Assembly (NCBI RefSeq): GCF_000305775.1
Contig: NC_018866.1
Location: 496,001 to 560,000, forward strand
Direction: 5' to 3'
DNA length: 64,000 bases
Origin: Dehalobacter sp. DCA
GTDB lineage: Bacteria; Bacillota; Desulfitobacteriia; Desulfitobacteriales; Syntrophobotulaceae
Part shown: in pieces, positions 40,475 through 53,092 of the stretch
Layout: every line of letters begins with the position of its first letter
How positions within the stretch are numbered: position 1 is the stretch's first letter
Position numbers and translations under genes: made by a program
The notes under the pieces: model-generated
Database searches by the model: none
Told to the model about the DNA's origin: nothing
The model's input: the letters and a program-made list of their open reading frames with translations, nothing else

Positions 40475-42079
40475 ATGTCTAAGAAAGGGCAGAAAGTACA
40501 TACCAAGAAAGTATTTAAACCTTATGTGCAGGAACAACAAACACTGCCGTTAAGCATCGACAGCCTGATTCCTCAAAACCATGTCGTCCGAGTTGTGAAT
40601 CGTGCTATCGATCGCATGAATCTCGAACCCTTGTTTGCCAAATATCCTGGAGGCGGCCGTTCCAGCTTTCACCCTGTCATGATGACCAAGTTATTGGTTT
40701 ATGCGTATACGGACAGGGTTTTTTCATGCCGCCGGATAGCAAAAGCGGCCCGTGAAAATATTATGTATATGTGGCTGTGCGGCGGCAATCAGCCGGATTT
40801 CATGTCAGTTAACCGCTTCCGGAGTGAACGGATGAAAGAGGTTATTCTAGAAGTATTTGCTGAAGTTATTGAACTCTTAGTCAAAGAAAAATACATCAAG
40901 CTGGAAAATTATTTTTTAGACGGGACAAAAATTGAGGCCAATGCCAATAAATACAGTTGGGTATGGGGCAAATCCACGAAGCGCTATAAAGAAGCGTTAA
41001 GGGAGAAATGCCGGGAATTATTTAAAGAAATCGATCAGATCAATGAAGAAGAAAATGCGGAATACGGCGACAGTGATTTAGAAGAGCTAGGCAATGGCAA
41101 GCCCATTGACTCAGAGGCTATTGAAGAAGCCGTAAGGAAAATTGACGAGAGACTGGCTAAGAAATCGGAAGAAGAGACAGTAGATGCTGAAACCAAAAAG
41201 TTAAAGAAAACAAGAAACACCCTTACGAAAGATTATCTGCCAAGAATGCAGAAATATGAACAGCAAGAACTGATCCTGGAAGAAAGAAACAGTTACTCCA
41301 AGACAGATCACGATGCCACCTTTATGCGAATGAAAGAAGACCATATGAAAAACGGTCAGTTAAAGCCAGGTTACAATGTCCAGATCGGGACGGAGAACCA
41401 GTTTGTGGTCGGTTACAGTGTTCATCAGAGACCGGGCGATACCAGCTGTATGAAGGATCACCTGGAAGAATTAAAAACGCTCCTGCATGGGGAATTACCA
41501 AAGAATATTATTGCCGATGCCGGCTATGGCAGCGAAGAAAATTACGACTATCTGCAGGAGAAAAAGCTTGTGTCTTATGTCAAATATAATACCTTCCACA
41601 AAGAAGCCAGTAAGAAATGGAAAGAAGACATAACGAAACCACAGAACTTCACCTATGACCATGAAAATGATGAATATATCTGCGGTTATGGGAGAACACT
41701 CATTTTCTTATACGAGCGGCACCAAAAAAGTGACAATGGCTATAGGAGTTTGATCCGAATCTATGAATGCCTGAATTGTTCCGGGTGTCCTCATCGGAAC
41801 CAGTGCGTGAAGTCATCCGATCCATACGCTAACAGAAGAATATATGTCAATCGCAAACTGAATGCCTATAAAGAACAGGCCCGCAGGAATTTGTGTTCAG
41901 AAGAAGGTTTGCGCATGAGGAGCTTGAGGCCGGTCGAGGTTGAAAGCGTCTTTGGAGACATTAAAGGGAATCACGGTATGCGAAGATTCCTGTTAAAAGG
42001 GCTAGAAAAGGTTAAAATTGAGTGGGGATTACATTGCATCGCTCATAATATGAGAAAAATGGCGTTGATCACTGGATAG
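40475..42079 (+). CDS. IS1182-family transposase
   Basis: The 534-residue protein has the N-terminal DUF772 region (SLIPQNHVVRVVNRAIDR, FHPVMMTKLLVYAY). DDE catalytic parts follow: DGTKIEANANKY, IADAGYGSEENY and the late Glu region RRFLLKGLEKVKIEWGLHCIAHN. A Cys cluster (CLNCSGCPHRNQC) lies between. It is full length with no frameshift, so it is probably active. A good ribosome site (TTTGGAGGT) precedes the ATG. Confidence 0.92.
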   Translation: MSKKGQKVHTKKVFKPYVQEQQTLPLSIDSLIPQNHVVRVVNRAIDRMNLEPLFAKYPGGGRSSFHPVMMTKLLVYAYTDRVFSCRRIAKAARENIMYMWLCGGNQPDFMSVNRFRSERMKEVILEVFAEVIELLVKEKYIKLENYFLDGTKIEANANKYSWVWGKSTKRYKEALREKCRELFKEIDQINEEENAEYGDSDLEELGNGKPIDSEAIEEAVRKIDERLAKKSEEETVDAETKKLKKTRNTLTKDYLPRMQKYEQQELILEERNSYSKTDHDATFMRMKEDHMKNGQLKPGYNVQIGTENQFVVGYSVHQRPGDTSCMKDHLEELKTLLHGELPKNIIADAGYGSEENYDYLQEKKLVSYVKYNTFHKEASKKWKEDITKPQNFTYDHENDEYICGYGRTLIFLYERHQKSDNGYRSLIRIYECLNCSGCPHRNQCVKSSDPYANRRIYVNRKLNAYKEQARRNLCSEEGLRMRSLRPVEVESVFGDIKGNHGMRRFLLKGLEKVKIEWGLHCIAHNMRKMALITG

Positions 42080-47988: not shown

Positions 47989-48242
47989 AGCCTTTATCAG
48001 AATGCAGTGGTTATACCTGAATCATTGTGCCACTCATTAAATACCATCGGTAATATAGATATTCATTAGTTCCTATTTCCCATAAGCATCAATTATGAGT
48101 TGCCATAACATATATTTAAACCAAACGATCGATGAAAAAGCTAGGATGTTGTTGTACGACGCTGCATCCTAGCTTTTTATTGTTTTTATAAATGTCTTTT
48201 AAAAAGCGGAGAAGTTCCTGTAATTAGAAAAATAATCGCTAA
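47989..48242. other. Intergenic region before the dehalogenase cluster
   Basis: AT-rich with no coding sense. It holds the terminator at 48135 and ends at the regulatory palindrome at 48243. Confidence 0.4.
48135..48178. terminator. Strong terminator hairpin
   Basis: AAAAAGCTAGGATG (48135-48148) and CATCCTAGCTTTTT (48165-48178), perfect 14-base arms with T-runs both ways. It isolates the rdh cluster from the sigma operon. Confidence 0.85.
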
Positions 48243-48284
48243 TTAGTAGCTACTAAGAGATATTACGTATTACAGAGATATAAT
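48243..48284 (+). promoter_or_regulatory. Dehalobox-like operator and promoter of rdhBA
   Basis: The perfect palindrome TTAGTAGCTACTAA (48243-48256) fits the TTAAT-N4-ATTAA pattern of the CprK box with one change per arm. A TATAAT -10 box lies at 48279-48284 and no -35 box is recognisable. With transcription starting about 48291, the palindrome centre is at -41.5, the usual place for class II CRP/FNR activators. The regulator gene is at 50417. Confidence 0.7.
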
Positions 48285-48346
48285 GCGAGTGACTTGAGTT
48301 TATTCTATAGACTTGATGTGAAAAAGTATGGAAAGGGGGTGTTAAA

Positions 48347-48661
48347 ATGTTGAATGTGGTTCTCATTTTTGTTGTCGGAATGCTTTTTTTAGCAGGTATT
48401 TTAGCCCTGAGACCTTACGCAAACAAGGCGGACAAAAAGAAAACTGTGCTTAATTGGTCTCTGTATTTGGTATGGTTTATGATTACTTGTATCGGATTAT
48501 CTTTCATTGTGCTGAATGCTCAGATTGGTCATGTCAAAGCTACCAGTACCGGAATCTTTCTCTTCTTCGGATTATCTGTCGTCATCGGAATAGTATTAGC
48601 AAGATTAGTGGGATTGATAGGTCTAGGTAAAAAACAGAAAAGTTCTAATTTGACGAGTTAA
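48347..48661 (+). CDS. rdhB: Reductive dehalogenase membrane anchor protein
   Basis: A 104-residue protein with three membrane segments (VVLIFVVGMLFLAGILAL, YLVWFMITCIGLSFIVL, IFLFFGLSVVIGIVLARLVGL). Size and position just before rdhA fit the RdhB/CprB family, which is thought to fix RdhA to the outer face of the membrane. AAAGGGGGTG precedes the ATG. The rdhB-rdhA order matches the Desulfitobacterium cprBA arrangement, whereas many pce clusters have A before B. Confidence 0.87.
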   Translation: MLNVVLIFVVGMLFLAGILALRPYANKADKKKTVLNWSLYLVWFMITCIGLSFIVLNAQIGHVKATSTGIFLFFGLSVVIGIVLARLVGLIGLGKKQKSSNLTS

Positions 48662-48674
48662 GAGGTGAAAAGTA

Positions 48675-50021
48675 ATGTCAAAATCTTTGGAACAAGAAGA
48701 AAAACAGCAGAGACAAAAATTTCAGATGAACCGGCGTAAATTTCTAAAAGCAGGGGCTGCTTCTGCACTGGCAGCAGGGATTGTTGGCGCAATCGGAGTT
48801 TTGCCGTCAGAAGCTATGGCAAGCCAGACAGGTCCCAAAAACGGAGCCAAATCCAAGCTGCATCCCAATGCAAATTATGGTGGTGCCAGTGTCCGATTTG
48901 TTGAGAATAACGACCAATGGCTCGGAACTTCAAAGATCGTCGGTCCTATTAAAAACACCCATGCAGCAGACGCAGGATTCAATTATGCTATTCGTGGTAA
49001 ACTAACCCCCGAAGCTCAAAAAGAATCCTTCCACTATCACTTTGTTGGTAAACATCCTCTTAATGCTGCTCTTATGGGATTCGTCGGTGTTATCGGTCCA
49101 GACGCACTGTGCGGCGGGAAACCGGCTCCTGAAAAGCTGCCGATTCCAGATCCTGCACAAATGTCCCAACACATTAAGGATTGCGCGTATTTTTTGCGGG
49201 CTGACGAAGTTGGAATCGGCAAGATGCCCGCTTATGCTTATTATAGTTACAGGTCCCCTTCGCAGGATAATTTGTTTAAGAATGGGGATGATTTGTCTAA
49301 ATCAATTCCGGTCACGGAGAGGATGCCTTATGTCATTACGTTTATGGTTGACCAGCATTTGGAAACGATGTTGGGTTCGACCGGATATGATGGTATCAGT
49401 GCCGGTCAATCCTTCCGTTCATATCATGCCTCCGGTGTTATTGCTGTCATCTTAGCGAGTTATATTCGTAACCTGGGTTATAATGCCAGAGCAAATCATA
49501 TTTCCAACTATGAAGCAGTCATGGGTCCCTGCCTGATAGCGTCGGGATTGGGTGAACTATCCAGAACAGGAGACTGCGTAGCTCATCCCCGGCTGGGATT
49601 CCGCCATAAGTGTGCAGCTGTAACCACGGATTTGCCGCTCGTTCCCGATAATCCCATTGATTTTGGCTTACAGGATTTTTGTCGGGTGTGTAAAAAATGT
49701 GCTGATAACTGTCCAGGGGGCGCTATTACATTTGATGATGAGCCAGCCGAGCATAATGGATACTTGCGATGGAACACTGACTCTCTAAAATGCACAATAT
49801 TCCGCTCAACGAACAAAGAAGGATCTTCCTGCGGCAGGTGTATGAAGGTATGCCCCTGGGACTCTAAAGAGCAGTCCTGGTTTCACGAGGCAGGCACTTG
49901 GATTGGTAGCCATGGAGAAGCTTCTTCCAGTCTGTTGAAAACAATCGATGATATGTTCGGTTACGGTACGGAACAAATTGAGAAATACAAATGGTGGCTG
50001 GAATGGCCTGAGAGGTATTAG
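48675..50021 (+). CDS. rdhA: Reductive dehalogenase catalytic subunit, CprA-like
   Basis: A 448-residue protein with a twin-arginine signal ([17 protein letters not shown], about residues 19-35, cleavage after AMA). The mature part has the corrinoid-binding core regions typical of RdhA, e.g. [18 protein letters not shown] and [10 protein letters not shown]. Two [4Fe-4S] sites follow: [16 protein letters not shown] and CTIFRST...[10 protein letters not shown]. The ending WLEWPERY and the general pattern resemble the ortho-chlorophenol dehalogenase CprA of Desulfitobacterium. It removes halogen from organic compounds as the terminal step of respiration. The actual substrate cannot be told. The gene is intact and 13 bases from rdhB. 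Confidence 0.95.
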
Positions 50022-50416
50022 CCGCCAAGCAATAATCAGTTCAGTTTTCTCATTAGGTATATCTTTAAGCGGCCGAGGTCTTATCTTGCCGCTTAAAGAT
50101 ATACGAAAACAGATGTTTATTACTTGCAATTGGTCTTAGATTATGTTTTCCTGTCTTTAGTCTTTATCAGAAATATTGCAGAGATTCAGTCGTCATTTGA
50201 AAAGAATCTTACTTCTTTTTTCTAATGACTTTTTTGGTTTCAGCAAATAGCTACGCACAACCTATTGTAATGTTATATTAACCCATTGATAATATCCGCT
50301 TCGAGAAATTTCTATAATTCGGCATAACTTCTTAACAGCATATTTGAAGCGGTATTTGAAAATAATCAGTATTAAGCCTAATAGTTTATATTTTCTTTTA
50401 AAAGGTGGGGATAACT
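50022..50416. other. Intergenic region rdhA-rdhK
   Basis: Contains the long inverted repeat at 50057 and a second CprK-box-like palindrome, TATTA-AGCC-TAATA (50370-50383), directly before the regulator gene. Otherwise AT-rich without coding sense. Confidence 0.4.
50057..50104 (+). terminator. 17-base inverted repeat after rdhA
   Basis: GTATATCTTTAAGCGGC (50057-50073) and its exact complement (50088-50104), 14-base loop. There is no T-run, so it may stabilise the rdhBA mRNA or act as a poor terminator. It begins 35 bases after the rdhA stop. Confidence 0.55.
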
Positions 50417-51124
50417 TTGGAGAACGGGAAAATACCAGATTGTATAATAAAGATGCCTATTATTCCAACATTTGATCCCATTGAAGAGCTAAACATGTAT
50501 ACTTCTCTTGGAAGCCTGCATACATTTGCAAGGGGAAGCAAGATCGTTTCGCCCGGCATACCTTTTAGTAATGTTATTTTCTTGATTTCAGGACAACTTG
50601 ATGTGAGTATGGTATCGCGGAATGGTGAGGAGAAGTATCTGCTTGAAGTTTTTAAGAACGGCATAGCGGTGGCTTTTAACCAAAATGATGATCATGAATT
50701 CCAAATTACTGCAGTAAAAGATTGCACTGTCTGTTTTTTTCCTTTGGACATGATGGTTGCAATATTATCGCAGAATACTCGTTTGTTAAAAAATTTTATC
50801 TTGAATCTTATACAAAAAACGCAATACTTTATGTATCAATCAAGGGACTTCTATCAAAGCCGTCCTTCTGCTAGGGTATTCTCTTTTCTATATAACCTCT
50901 GTCTGACAAAAGGAAATCGGGTGAATGACTATTATGAGTTAGCGGTTGAGAATGTGTCACAAAAGACGATTGCCAAAATAACAGGAACCCATCCTGTGAC
51001 CGTTTGTAAATTATTTACTTATCTTAGTAAAGAAGGCATTATAAAAAAGAATAGAAAAGTCATTAAGGTTTACGATCTCAATAAATTATGTAACCTTATT
51101 GCAAATGAGGAATTAACCTATTAA
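50417..51124 (+). CDS. rdhK: CRP/FNR-family regulator of the dehalogenase (CprK-like)
   Basis: TTG 50417 is preferred (AGGTGGGG 6 bases upstream); GTG 50405 is the alternative. The 235-residue protein has an N-terminal cyclic-nucleotide-like effector domain (LNMYTSLGSLHTFARGSKIV, LISGQLDVSMVSRNGEEKY). A long helix and a C-terminal winged helix with VSQKTIAKITGTHPVTVCKLFTYLSKEGII follow. This is the CprK/RdhK type, which binds halogenated aromatic compounds and activates dehalobox promoters. Several Cys are present (PDC, DCTVC, NLC, TVCKL, LCNL), which could allow redox control as in CprK. It is downstream of rdhBA on the same strand. Confidence 0.88.
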   Translation: MENGKIPDCIIKMPIIPTFDPIEELNMYTSLGSLHTFARGSKIVSPGIPFSNVIFLISGQLDVSMVSRNGEEKYLLEVFKNGIAVAFNQNDDHEFQITAVKDCTVCFFPLDMMVAILSQNTRLLKNFILNLIQKTQYFMYQSRDFYQSRPSARVFSFLYNLCLTKGNRVNDYYELAVENVSQKTIAKITGTHPVTVCKLFTYLSKEGIIKKNRKVIKVYDLNKLCNLIANEELTY

Positions 51125-51197: not shown

Positions 51198-53092
51198 GTG
51201 CGCCCGGCATGGGCAACAACTCGGCGGTGAGAGTCCGCTGCACGCTTGGTAGTAGGAAGTGCTAGCCGAACGGCAAGGGTGTCCATCGTGAGGTGGAATC
51301 TAAAGGAAGCCGTAAGCAAAGTCCTGAACCGACGAACAGAAACCGCATATAAGGCTGAATCAGGGTGGACGAGTTTGCTTAATAAAACAAAGTCCAATAC
51401 TACCCGAACCCTGTACAGTAAATGCGGCGGTTACATGGGATGAAGGTTGTTGTTCTTACCCGGGGAGATCTCATACCACGCTCCCGACAAGAGGGACGCA
51501 TTCGACGACCCACAGGAGCAAACCGCGCAGTGATGTGTAGCTGAGGCATGAGAAGTCAGCAGAAGCTATAGTACCGCGGAAACGCGGGAAGGGCTGAACA
51601 GTAGTAGTCTTTTGAAGAAGGAAGAAGGTGGACGATGTGAAGAAGGCAGAATACGAGGGAAACCTTGGCTGCCGCCCGGAAGATAGGGTGGAACCCGAAG
51701 ACAACGGCGGAGCGCGGAGCATCGTTGAACGAGAAACCAAGGAAAAAGACGGTGCAGTCGACCTAATGAAAAGACTTCTGGACAGAGAAAACCTGAACAG
51801 GGCTTTCAAAAGGGTTAAGTCAAACGGTGGAGCAGCAGGAGTCGACGGAATGACCGTGGATGAAATGCTGCCCTGGCTCAGGAAACACAGAGAGGAGTTG
51901 CTACAGAGTTTAGGAAACGGGATGTACAGGCCTCAACCGGTTAGGAGAGTAGAGATACCCAAACCGGATGGAGGAGTACGAAAACTTGGTGTGCCAACGG
52001 TCATTGATCGGATGGTGCAACAGGCATTGGTGCAGATATTGCAACCAATCTTTGAACCGCTGTTTTCGGAGGCAAGCTACGGCTATCGACCGGGGCGCAG
52101 CGCACAGCAAGCCATGAAGGAAGCGAAAGAGTACTACGAACAGGGATATACCCGCGCAGCGGATATCGATCTGTCAAAATACTTCGATACGATGAATCAT
52201 GAACTGCTGATGAATATAATACGCAAAGAAGTAAAAGATAAGCGGATTATAGACCTCATCAAGAAGTTTCTGAAAAGCGGAGTCATGGAGAATGGAGTGA
52301 AAAGCAAGACGGAGGAAGGCAGCCCACAGGGAGGCCCGTTATCTCCGTTACTTTCGAATATCTACCTCAATGAATTCGACAAGGAAATGGAAAGACGGGG
52401 GCACAAGCATTTGCGATACGCGGATGACATTGCTGTCTACACCAAGAGCCGCAGAGCAGCAGAACGTGTATTAGAAAGCTGTAAGCAGTACCTTGAGAAG
52501 AAACTAAAGCTGAAAGTGAACTCGGAAAAGAGTAAAGCGGGATCACCGCTGAAGCTTAAGTTCCTTGGCTTTGCCTTGTACAGGACGGGCAAAGGTACGG
52601 GAATACGGGTGCATGAAAAGTCAATGAAGAAATTCAAGGAAAAGCTCAAAGGCATCACAAAACGGAATCGCGGAAGGGCCATTCAACAGATTCTGAAGGA
52701 ACTGAAGCTATATACAACGGGGTGGCTTAATTATTACGCTATTGCCGGTATGAAGAGCAGAATTCAGGAACTGAACAGGTGGCTGAAACGACGGATACGG
52801 ATGTATATCTGGAAGCAGTGGAAGAAACCAAAAACCCGAATCGGGAACTTGATAGCACTCGGCATGTCGGTTTACTGGGCACACAAGAATGGGTACACTG
52901 GCAAAGGCTACTGGAGAGTAGCCGGGAGCGGGATACTTAATCATACGTTGACTGACAAATACCTCGAATCCCTCGGCTATGATGACATAGCCAAGAAATA
53001 CGAGGTACTGCACTTAAACTATTGAACCGCCGTACGCGGAACCGCACATACGGTGGTGTGAGAGGCCGGGGGCGAGACGCCCCCTCCTACTC
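51198..53092 (+). mobile_element. Group II intron with its own reverse transcriptase
   Basis: The 5' end GTGCGCCCGGCATGGG is typical of group II introns. The structured 5' part (51198-51627) precedes the maturase gene. Domain V (GAACCGCCGTACGCGG...CATACGGTGG, about 53025-53060) and domain VI (GGGGGCG...CGCCCCC then CTCCTACTCGAT) follow it. The exact 3' end, about 53084-53092, is uncertain. Insertion directly behind a terminator hairpin is the habit of the bacterial class C (IIC) group. Confidence 0.85.
51628..53025 (+). CDS. Group II intron reverse transcriptase/maturase
   Basis: The 465-residue protein begins at GTG 51628, or GTG 51637 with a better-spaced AAGG site. Reverse transcriptase blocks are RPQPVRRVEIPKPDGGVRKL, GVPTVIDRMVQQAL, YGYRPGRSAQQAM, DIDLSKYFDTMNHELL, GSPQGGPLSPLLSNIYLNE and the catalytic RYADDI. 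The maturase domain with WLNYYAIAGMKS and WLKRRIRMYIWKQWKKPKTR follows. No HNH endonuclease is seen. The frame is intact, so the intron may be mobile. Confidence 0.93.
   Translation: MDDVKKAEYEGNLGCRPEDRVEPEDNGGARSIVERETKEKDGAVDLMKRLLDRENLNRAFKRVKSNGGAAGVDGMTVDEMLPWLRKHREELLQSLGNGMYRPQPVRRVEIPKPDGGVRKLGVPTVIDRMVQQALVQILQPIFEPLFSEASYGYRPGRSAQQAMKEAKEYYEQGYTRAADIDLSKYFDTMNHELLMNIIRKEVKDKRIIDLIKKFLKSGVMENGVKSKTEEGSPQGGPLSPLLSNIYLNEFDKEMERRGHKHLRYADDIAVYTKSRRAAERVLESCKQYLEKKLKLKVNSEKSKAGSPLKLKFLGFALYRTGKGTGIRVHEKSMKKFKEKLKGITKRNRGRAIQQILKELKLYTTGWLNYYAIAGMKSRIQELNRWLKRRIRMYIWKQWKKPKTRIGNLIALGMSVYWAHKNGYTGKGYWRVAGSGILNHTLTDKYLESLGYDDIAKKYEVLHLNY

Follow-up and report, generated by a model that had tools for sequence, protein, structure and literature searches.

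The rdhBA locus and its promoter

The window considered here is a 64,000-nucleotide (nt) stretch of Dehalobacter sp. DCA (contig NC_018866.1, positions 496001-560000 of a closed 3,069,953-bp genome, labelled G000 below), and it contains a reductive dehalogenase (rdh) operon preceded by a short palindrome. We propose that this palindrome is very probably a class II dehalobox and that rdhBA is turned on from it by an activator of the RdhK/CprK type, the leading candidate being the RdhK whose gene lies downstream. The elements of the locus are the following (aa, amino acids).

48135..48178, + strand: terminator-like hairpin followed by T-rich DNA (14-nt perfect inverted repeat; fold -24 kcal/mol, z -6.3)
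48243..48256, no strand assigned: dehalobox TTAGTAGCTACTAA, with arms TTAGT and ACTAA around the spacer AGCT; predicted RdhK dimer site, centre 48249.5
48279..48284, + strand: -10 element TATAAT before rdhB, with 22 nt between box and TATAAT
48291, + strand: predicted transcription start, placed from the -10 element with 6 nt between TATAAT and +1
48347..48661, + strand: rdhB, 104-aa membrane anchor; in the family built from its sequence, rdhB adjoins rdhA throughout
48675..50021, + strand: rdhA, Tat-exported corrinoid/Fe-S reductive dehalogenase of 448 aa (TIGR02486, E 2.4e-73; Fer4 and TAT signal)
50057..50104, + strand: hairpin separating rdhA from rdhK (stem kept in orthologs; fold -29.7 kcal/mol, z -7.4)
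50405..51124, + strand: rdhK, CRP/FNR-type regulator (PF00027 and PF13545; CprK chains of the PDB at E 7e-33)

The initial annotation of this DNA described a perfect palindrome one base per arm away from the dehalobox TTAAT-N4-ATTAA, centred 41.5 bases before the start set by TATAAT, with no visible -35 box, and these observations hold. A position check returned TTAGTAGCTACTAA at 48243-48256 as a perfect 14-nt palindrome with one changed base in each arm; its centre lies at -41.5 relative to the +1 at 48291, as predicted from the -10 element; and the best match to TTGACA at spacings of 15-19 nt upstream of TATAAT was 3/6. The outer TTA/TAA of the dehalobox is kept, as are A18, C19 and T20 (compared with PMC2610375), the site lies in the promoter of rdh genes, and an rdhK is present in the cluster. 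When the 358-nt intergenic region was Markov-shuffled, 1.5% of the shuffles contained a TTART-N4-AYTAA box, 0.24% such a box with a TATAAT match of at least 5/6 at 21-23 nt, and 4.7% a perfect 14-nt palindrome. By themselves these rates only suggest that the box is not due to chance; that it is more than chance follows from its conservation in four species and from the excess of such boxes in front of rdh genes, both described below.

The hairpin at 48135-48178 is terminator-like and would close the upstream transcription unit, and that at 50057-50104 is the probable terminator of rdhBA. Because the two hairpins flank the promoter and rdhBA, with rdhK lying beyond them, rdhBA looks like a separate transcription unit. 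The 104-aa product of rdhB had no Pfam or NCBIfam match. For rdhK, the TTG at 50417, which follows AAAAGGTGGGG, is a likelier start than the GTG at 50405. A candidate second box ahead of rdhK (ATAATCAGTATTAA, 50362) was rejected: it has one mismatch, no -10 element at the right spacing, and is not kept in three orthologs.

Conservation and distribution of the box

The same rdh operon is found in four Dehalobacter species with an identical gene order, rdhK (50405-51124 in the window) included. Across the four, no column varies in the box (0/14) or the -10 element (0/6), and one varies in the stretch between them (1/22); the corresponding counts are 13/53 directly upstream of the box, 18/70 further up, and 16/105 at third codon positions of rdhB. 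RdhK is 96-98% identical in the three other species, and the box and its adjacent rdhK have been kept together at scattered single-cluster loci. The leader of rdhBA (48285-48346) is also strongly conserved, with 4/51 columns varying in 48285-48335, fewer than at the third codon positions of rdhB.

For a wider comparison, 98 rdhK, 116 rdhA and 110 rdhB matches were collected from ten genomes, and 40 non-redundant rdhB promoters were tested. The pattern TTART-N4-AYTAA followed at 21-23 nt by a -10 element (at least 4/6) was present in five of the 40, with 0.09 expected, a count reached in 0/300 shuffles. The looser TTA-N8-TAA with a -10 element was present in 21 of 40 (3.4 expected); at other gaps between box and -10 element it still scores 8-14, and the spacing adds support to the dehalobox case without carrying it. 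An unbiased search for palindromes returned the Shine-Dalgarno sequence first; with this masked, the top motif was TTA...TAA-like and in slight excess (34.7, vs 21-30.5 in shuffles). Because that excess is weak, the case rests on the tests of defined patterns.

Genome-wide counts were made in four rdh-rich Dehalobacter species, a site being scored as at rdh when an rdh gene began no more than 350 bp downstream of it (a space amounting to 0.8% of the genomes). Twelve of the 14 TTAGT-N4-ACTAA sites are at rdh, just upstream of rdhB or rdhK; the counts are 8/29 for mixed-arm sites and 2/19 for the canonical TTAAT-N4-ATTAA. By gene context the 12 sites form six locus groups, as against two groups elsewhere, and the nominal binomial value of 9e-24 for 12/14 therefore overstates independence; even as six groups versus two, the association is far beyond chance. 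In one ortholog pair (G000:2236072/G003:999261) the arms are unchanged and the spacer is AAAT in one and AATT in the other.

Individual sites outside the locus deserve mention. A second exact copy of TTAGTAGCTACTAA lies at G000:C1:1241615-1241628 (L011 9616-9629), between MarR-like and GNAT acetyltransferase genes, at a locus absent from other Dehalobacter genomes. The fourth G000 site, at 1361787, is inside a fabH-like coding sequence and was taken as chance, and TTAAGAAATACTAA at G000:1191095, though correctly spaced, overlaps an apparent terminator stem, which makes it a doubtful box. A single scan of the genome contigs gave only four distant loci. At G003:C1:778363 (L107 3363) and G004:C10:149909, TTAGTAGCGACTAA, identical to the window box at 13/14 positions, precedes an rdhB accompanied by an RdhK about 28% identical to that of the window; it is possible that TTAGTAGCGACTAA and the window box represent a site common to different RdhK proteins. 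Other inverted repeats, TCAATTTAGATTGA, TTAACAGCCGATAA and TTAAACCGGTTTAA, recur 21-23 nt before the -10 element in rdhB promoters of G003, G004 and G005, and could represent additional classes of dehalobox whose arms genuinely differ.

The regulator and alternative readings

The window RdhK has the domains of the CRP/FNR family (PF00027, PF13545) and clear homology to CprK, whose PDB chains match at E 7e-33, with NtcA far behind at E 2e-7. Its K138, V198 and T199 align with the ligand-contacting Lys133 and the DNA-reading V192 and T193 of CprK. In CprK, Gly85, Tyr130 and Leu131 close on chlorophenol, and Cys11 and Cys200 form a redox pair (PMC2610375). In the window RdhK the three pocket residues are Val, Leu and Ile, and a Tyr occupies the position of Cys200, so that in both its pocket and its redox pair the protein differs from CprK proper, the sensor of ortho-chlorophenol. 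Because Gly85, Tyr130 and Leu131 are replaced, the effector need not be chlorophenol. The chlorinated phenols envisaged in the initial annotation are thus weak candidates: Lys133, the phenolate contact in CprK, is kept, as in nearly all RdhK proteins, whereas the other pocket positions checked differ.

In the mechanism that we favour, an organohalide would activate an RdhK/CprK-type regulator, and the dimer of this regulator would bind the box at -41.5, replace the missing -35 element and contact RNA polymerase in the class II manner of CRP and FNR; rdhBA would thus be made only in the presence of its substrate. The likeliest binder would be the RdhK whose gene lies about 1.7 kb further downstream. 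The box, its spacing, the missing -35 element, the conservation, the enrichment of the box type and the co-conservation of rdhK are computed, and from them we infer binding, activation, the effector and the acting RdhK. Direct activation by the downstream CprK-like protein had been proposed in the initial annotation, and this part is supported by the CprK-type box, the class II geometry and the co-conservation of the homolog in four species; the shifted binding specificity that accompanied it is not.

Several points weigh against this mechanism. All of 48224-48324 is conserved (5/101 columns vary), and the box is therefore not separable from the promoter by these four species alone; judged from the alignment, it is the promoter as a whole, as a unit, that is under constraint. 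Both the transcription start and RdhK binding are predictions from sequence. The recognition helix has Pro at position 191, which no RdhK outside this ortholog group has. Its Cys at position 195 and Lys at 196 are found in many RdhK proteins, and Pro191 alone is peculiar to the window RdhK and its orthologs. Finally, several further RdhK proteins are encoded in the genome, any of which might bind. One or several of these could act at the box through cross-talk, with the downstream rdhK not the main regulator. RdhK6 does bind boxes from other clusters (PMC7062800), the nearly identical TTAGTAGCGACTAA at G003:778363 adjoins an RdhK of only about 28% identity, and a conserved hairpin stands between rdhBA and rdhK; set against this, all four species have retained the box along with its adjacent rdhK, at single-cluster loci in scattered positions, and we consider such cross-talk improbable without dismissing it. 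That the palindrome instead serves as operator for some unrelated regulator, one of MarR type for example, or arose by chance, is very unlikely. The exact second copy beside a MarR-like gene and the 4.7% of shuffles with a perfect palindrome would fit such an origin, but 12 of 14 such sites are at rdh genes, one of the remaining two is intragenic, and the box is invariant in four species at the exact class II spacing.

The shifted specificity claimed for the window RdhK, under which the changed base in each arm would mean that the protein reads TTAGT/ACTAA and not TTAAT/ATTAA, is unlikely. There is precedent for such differences in Desulfitobacterium hafniense, where RdhK1 prefers DB8, which has a TTAGT arm, over DB7, and Pro191 is restricted to the ortholog group of the window RdhK. 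The TTAGT arm was thus already known, and the canonical CprK1/RdhK6 binds DB8 almost fully in vitro and gives 106-fold activation from it (PMC7062800). In the CprK-DNA structure, Thr193 and Tyr230 restrict positions 18 and 19 only to a purine and a pyrimidine, and position 20, a pyrimidine, is tied to Val192 (PMC2610375); the window RdhK keeps the counterparts of Val192 and Thr193, and its C-terminal Tyr239 is only a candidate counterpart of Tyr230. At another rdh promoter, the G004 and G005 orthologs are TTAATTCATACTAA and TTAGTTCATACTAA (TTAAT vs TTAGT), although the DNA-binding domains of their RdhK proteins are identical at 82/84 positions and share the same recognition helix. TTAGT-N4-ACTAA is moreover frequent at rdh genes whose RdhK proteins are quite dissimilar, and a Mantel test of box arms against RdhK DNA-binding domains gave r 0.03 and p 0.37, with low power (19 RdhK-box pairs, set by adjacency). 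The DB8 sequence of D. hafniense was not found among 73 genomes of the order. Taken together, the binding of DB8 by CprK1/RdhK6, the structure, the ortholog promoters and the Mantel result indicate that arm position 4 can be A or G interchangeably, and that the change is not a specificity switch.

On its sequence, then, the window site is an ordinary dehalobox, well supported and well conserved. A possible novelty is the preference of the genus for TTAGT-N4-ACTAA over TTAAT-N4-ATTAA, of which no description was found in a literature search that did not extend to Rupakula 2013 (PMC3638465) or to the original CprK work of Gabor et al. We suggest tentatively, at somewhat less than an even chance, that Dehalobacter has its own dehalobox dialect, preferred over the textbook form and common to quite different RdhK proteins. 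An implication, if this is true, is that one common site could cross-induce rdh clusters across the genome. Dehalobacter strains clean up chlorinated solvents but are not readily amenable to genetic work, and for the majority of their numerous rdh operons no inducer is known. The signature of a box and a -10 element at 21-23 nt would point to the start and the likely regulator of rdhBA operons, and the box supplies DNA targets for the published screening method with hybrid RdhK proteins. Given the apparent preference for TTAGT-N4-ACTAA, most of these promoters would escape a search for the canonical TTAAT-N4-ATTAA.

Mobile elements and gene disruptions were also observed. Directly past rdhK is an open reading frame (ORF) for a group II intron reverse transcriptase/maturase (window 51628-53025), and a transposase-like ORF of 534 aa (window 40475-42079) precedes the rdh operon by about 6 kb. 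Elsewhere, in an rdhK-rdhB-rdhA cluster at L012 9189-13858 (G000:C1:2236188-2240858), an IS110-like transposase ORF (L012 10677-11738) splits rdhB from rdhA. At G000:C1:2425982-2428270, rdhK is split into two parts with about 1.6 kb between them, resembling the transposase-disrupted regulator reported beside dcrA in Dehalobacter strain DCA (PMC4751268).

Comparison with known systems

The FNR box has the consensus TTGAT-N4-ATCAA. It shares its length, spacing and class II use with the window box (comparison in PMC2610375); at position 3, however, it has G, with Glu209 in the regulator, where the window box has A and its regulator has Val (V198), which sets the window site apart from FNR boxes. 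Closer is DB8 (TTAGTatacGCTAA) of D. hafniense DCB-2, the target of RdhK1 (CprK4), bound by both RdhK1 and RdhK6 (PMC7062800). Its left arm is TTAGT, as in the window, and it has C at the same place of the right arm; that arm, however, is GCTAA, making DB8 an imperfect palindrome, whereas the window box has ACTAA and is fully symmetric. The best-established counterpart is DB7 (TTAATacacATTAA), the dehalobox of cprBA in D. hafniense DCB-2 recognized by CprK1/RdhK6, for which the start has been mapped, binding proven, and the centre placed at -41.5 (PMC7062800). DB7 and the window box are alike in being 14-bp inverted repeats of 5-4-5 design whose centres lie 41.5 bp ahead of the start of rdhBA-type operons, each with a CprK-family gene in its cluster; they differ in that the arms of DB7 are TTAAT/ATTAA, whereas those of the window box, known here from sequence and with a predicted start, are TTAGT/ACTAA.
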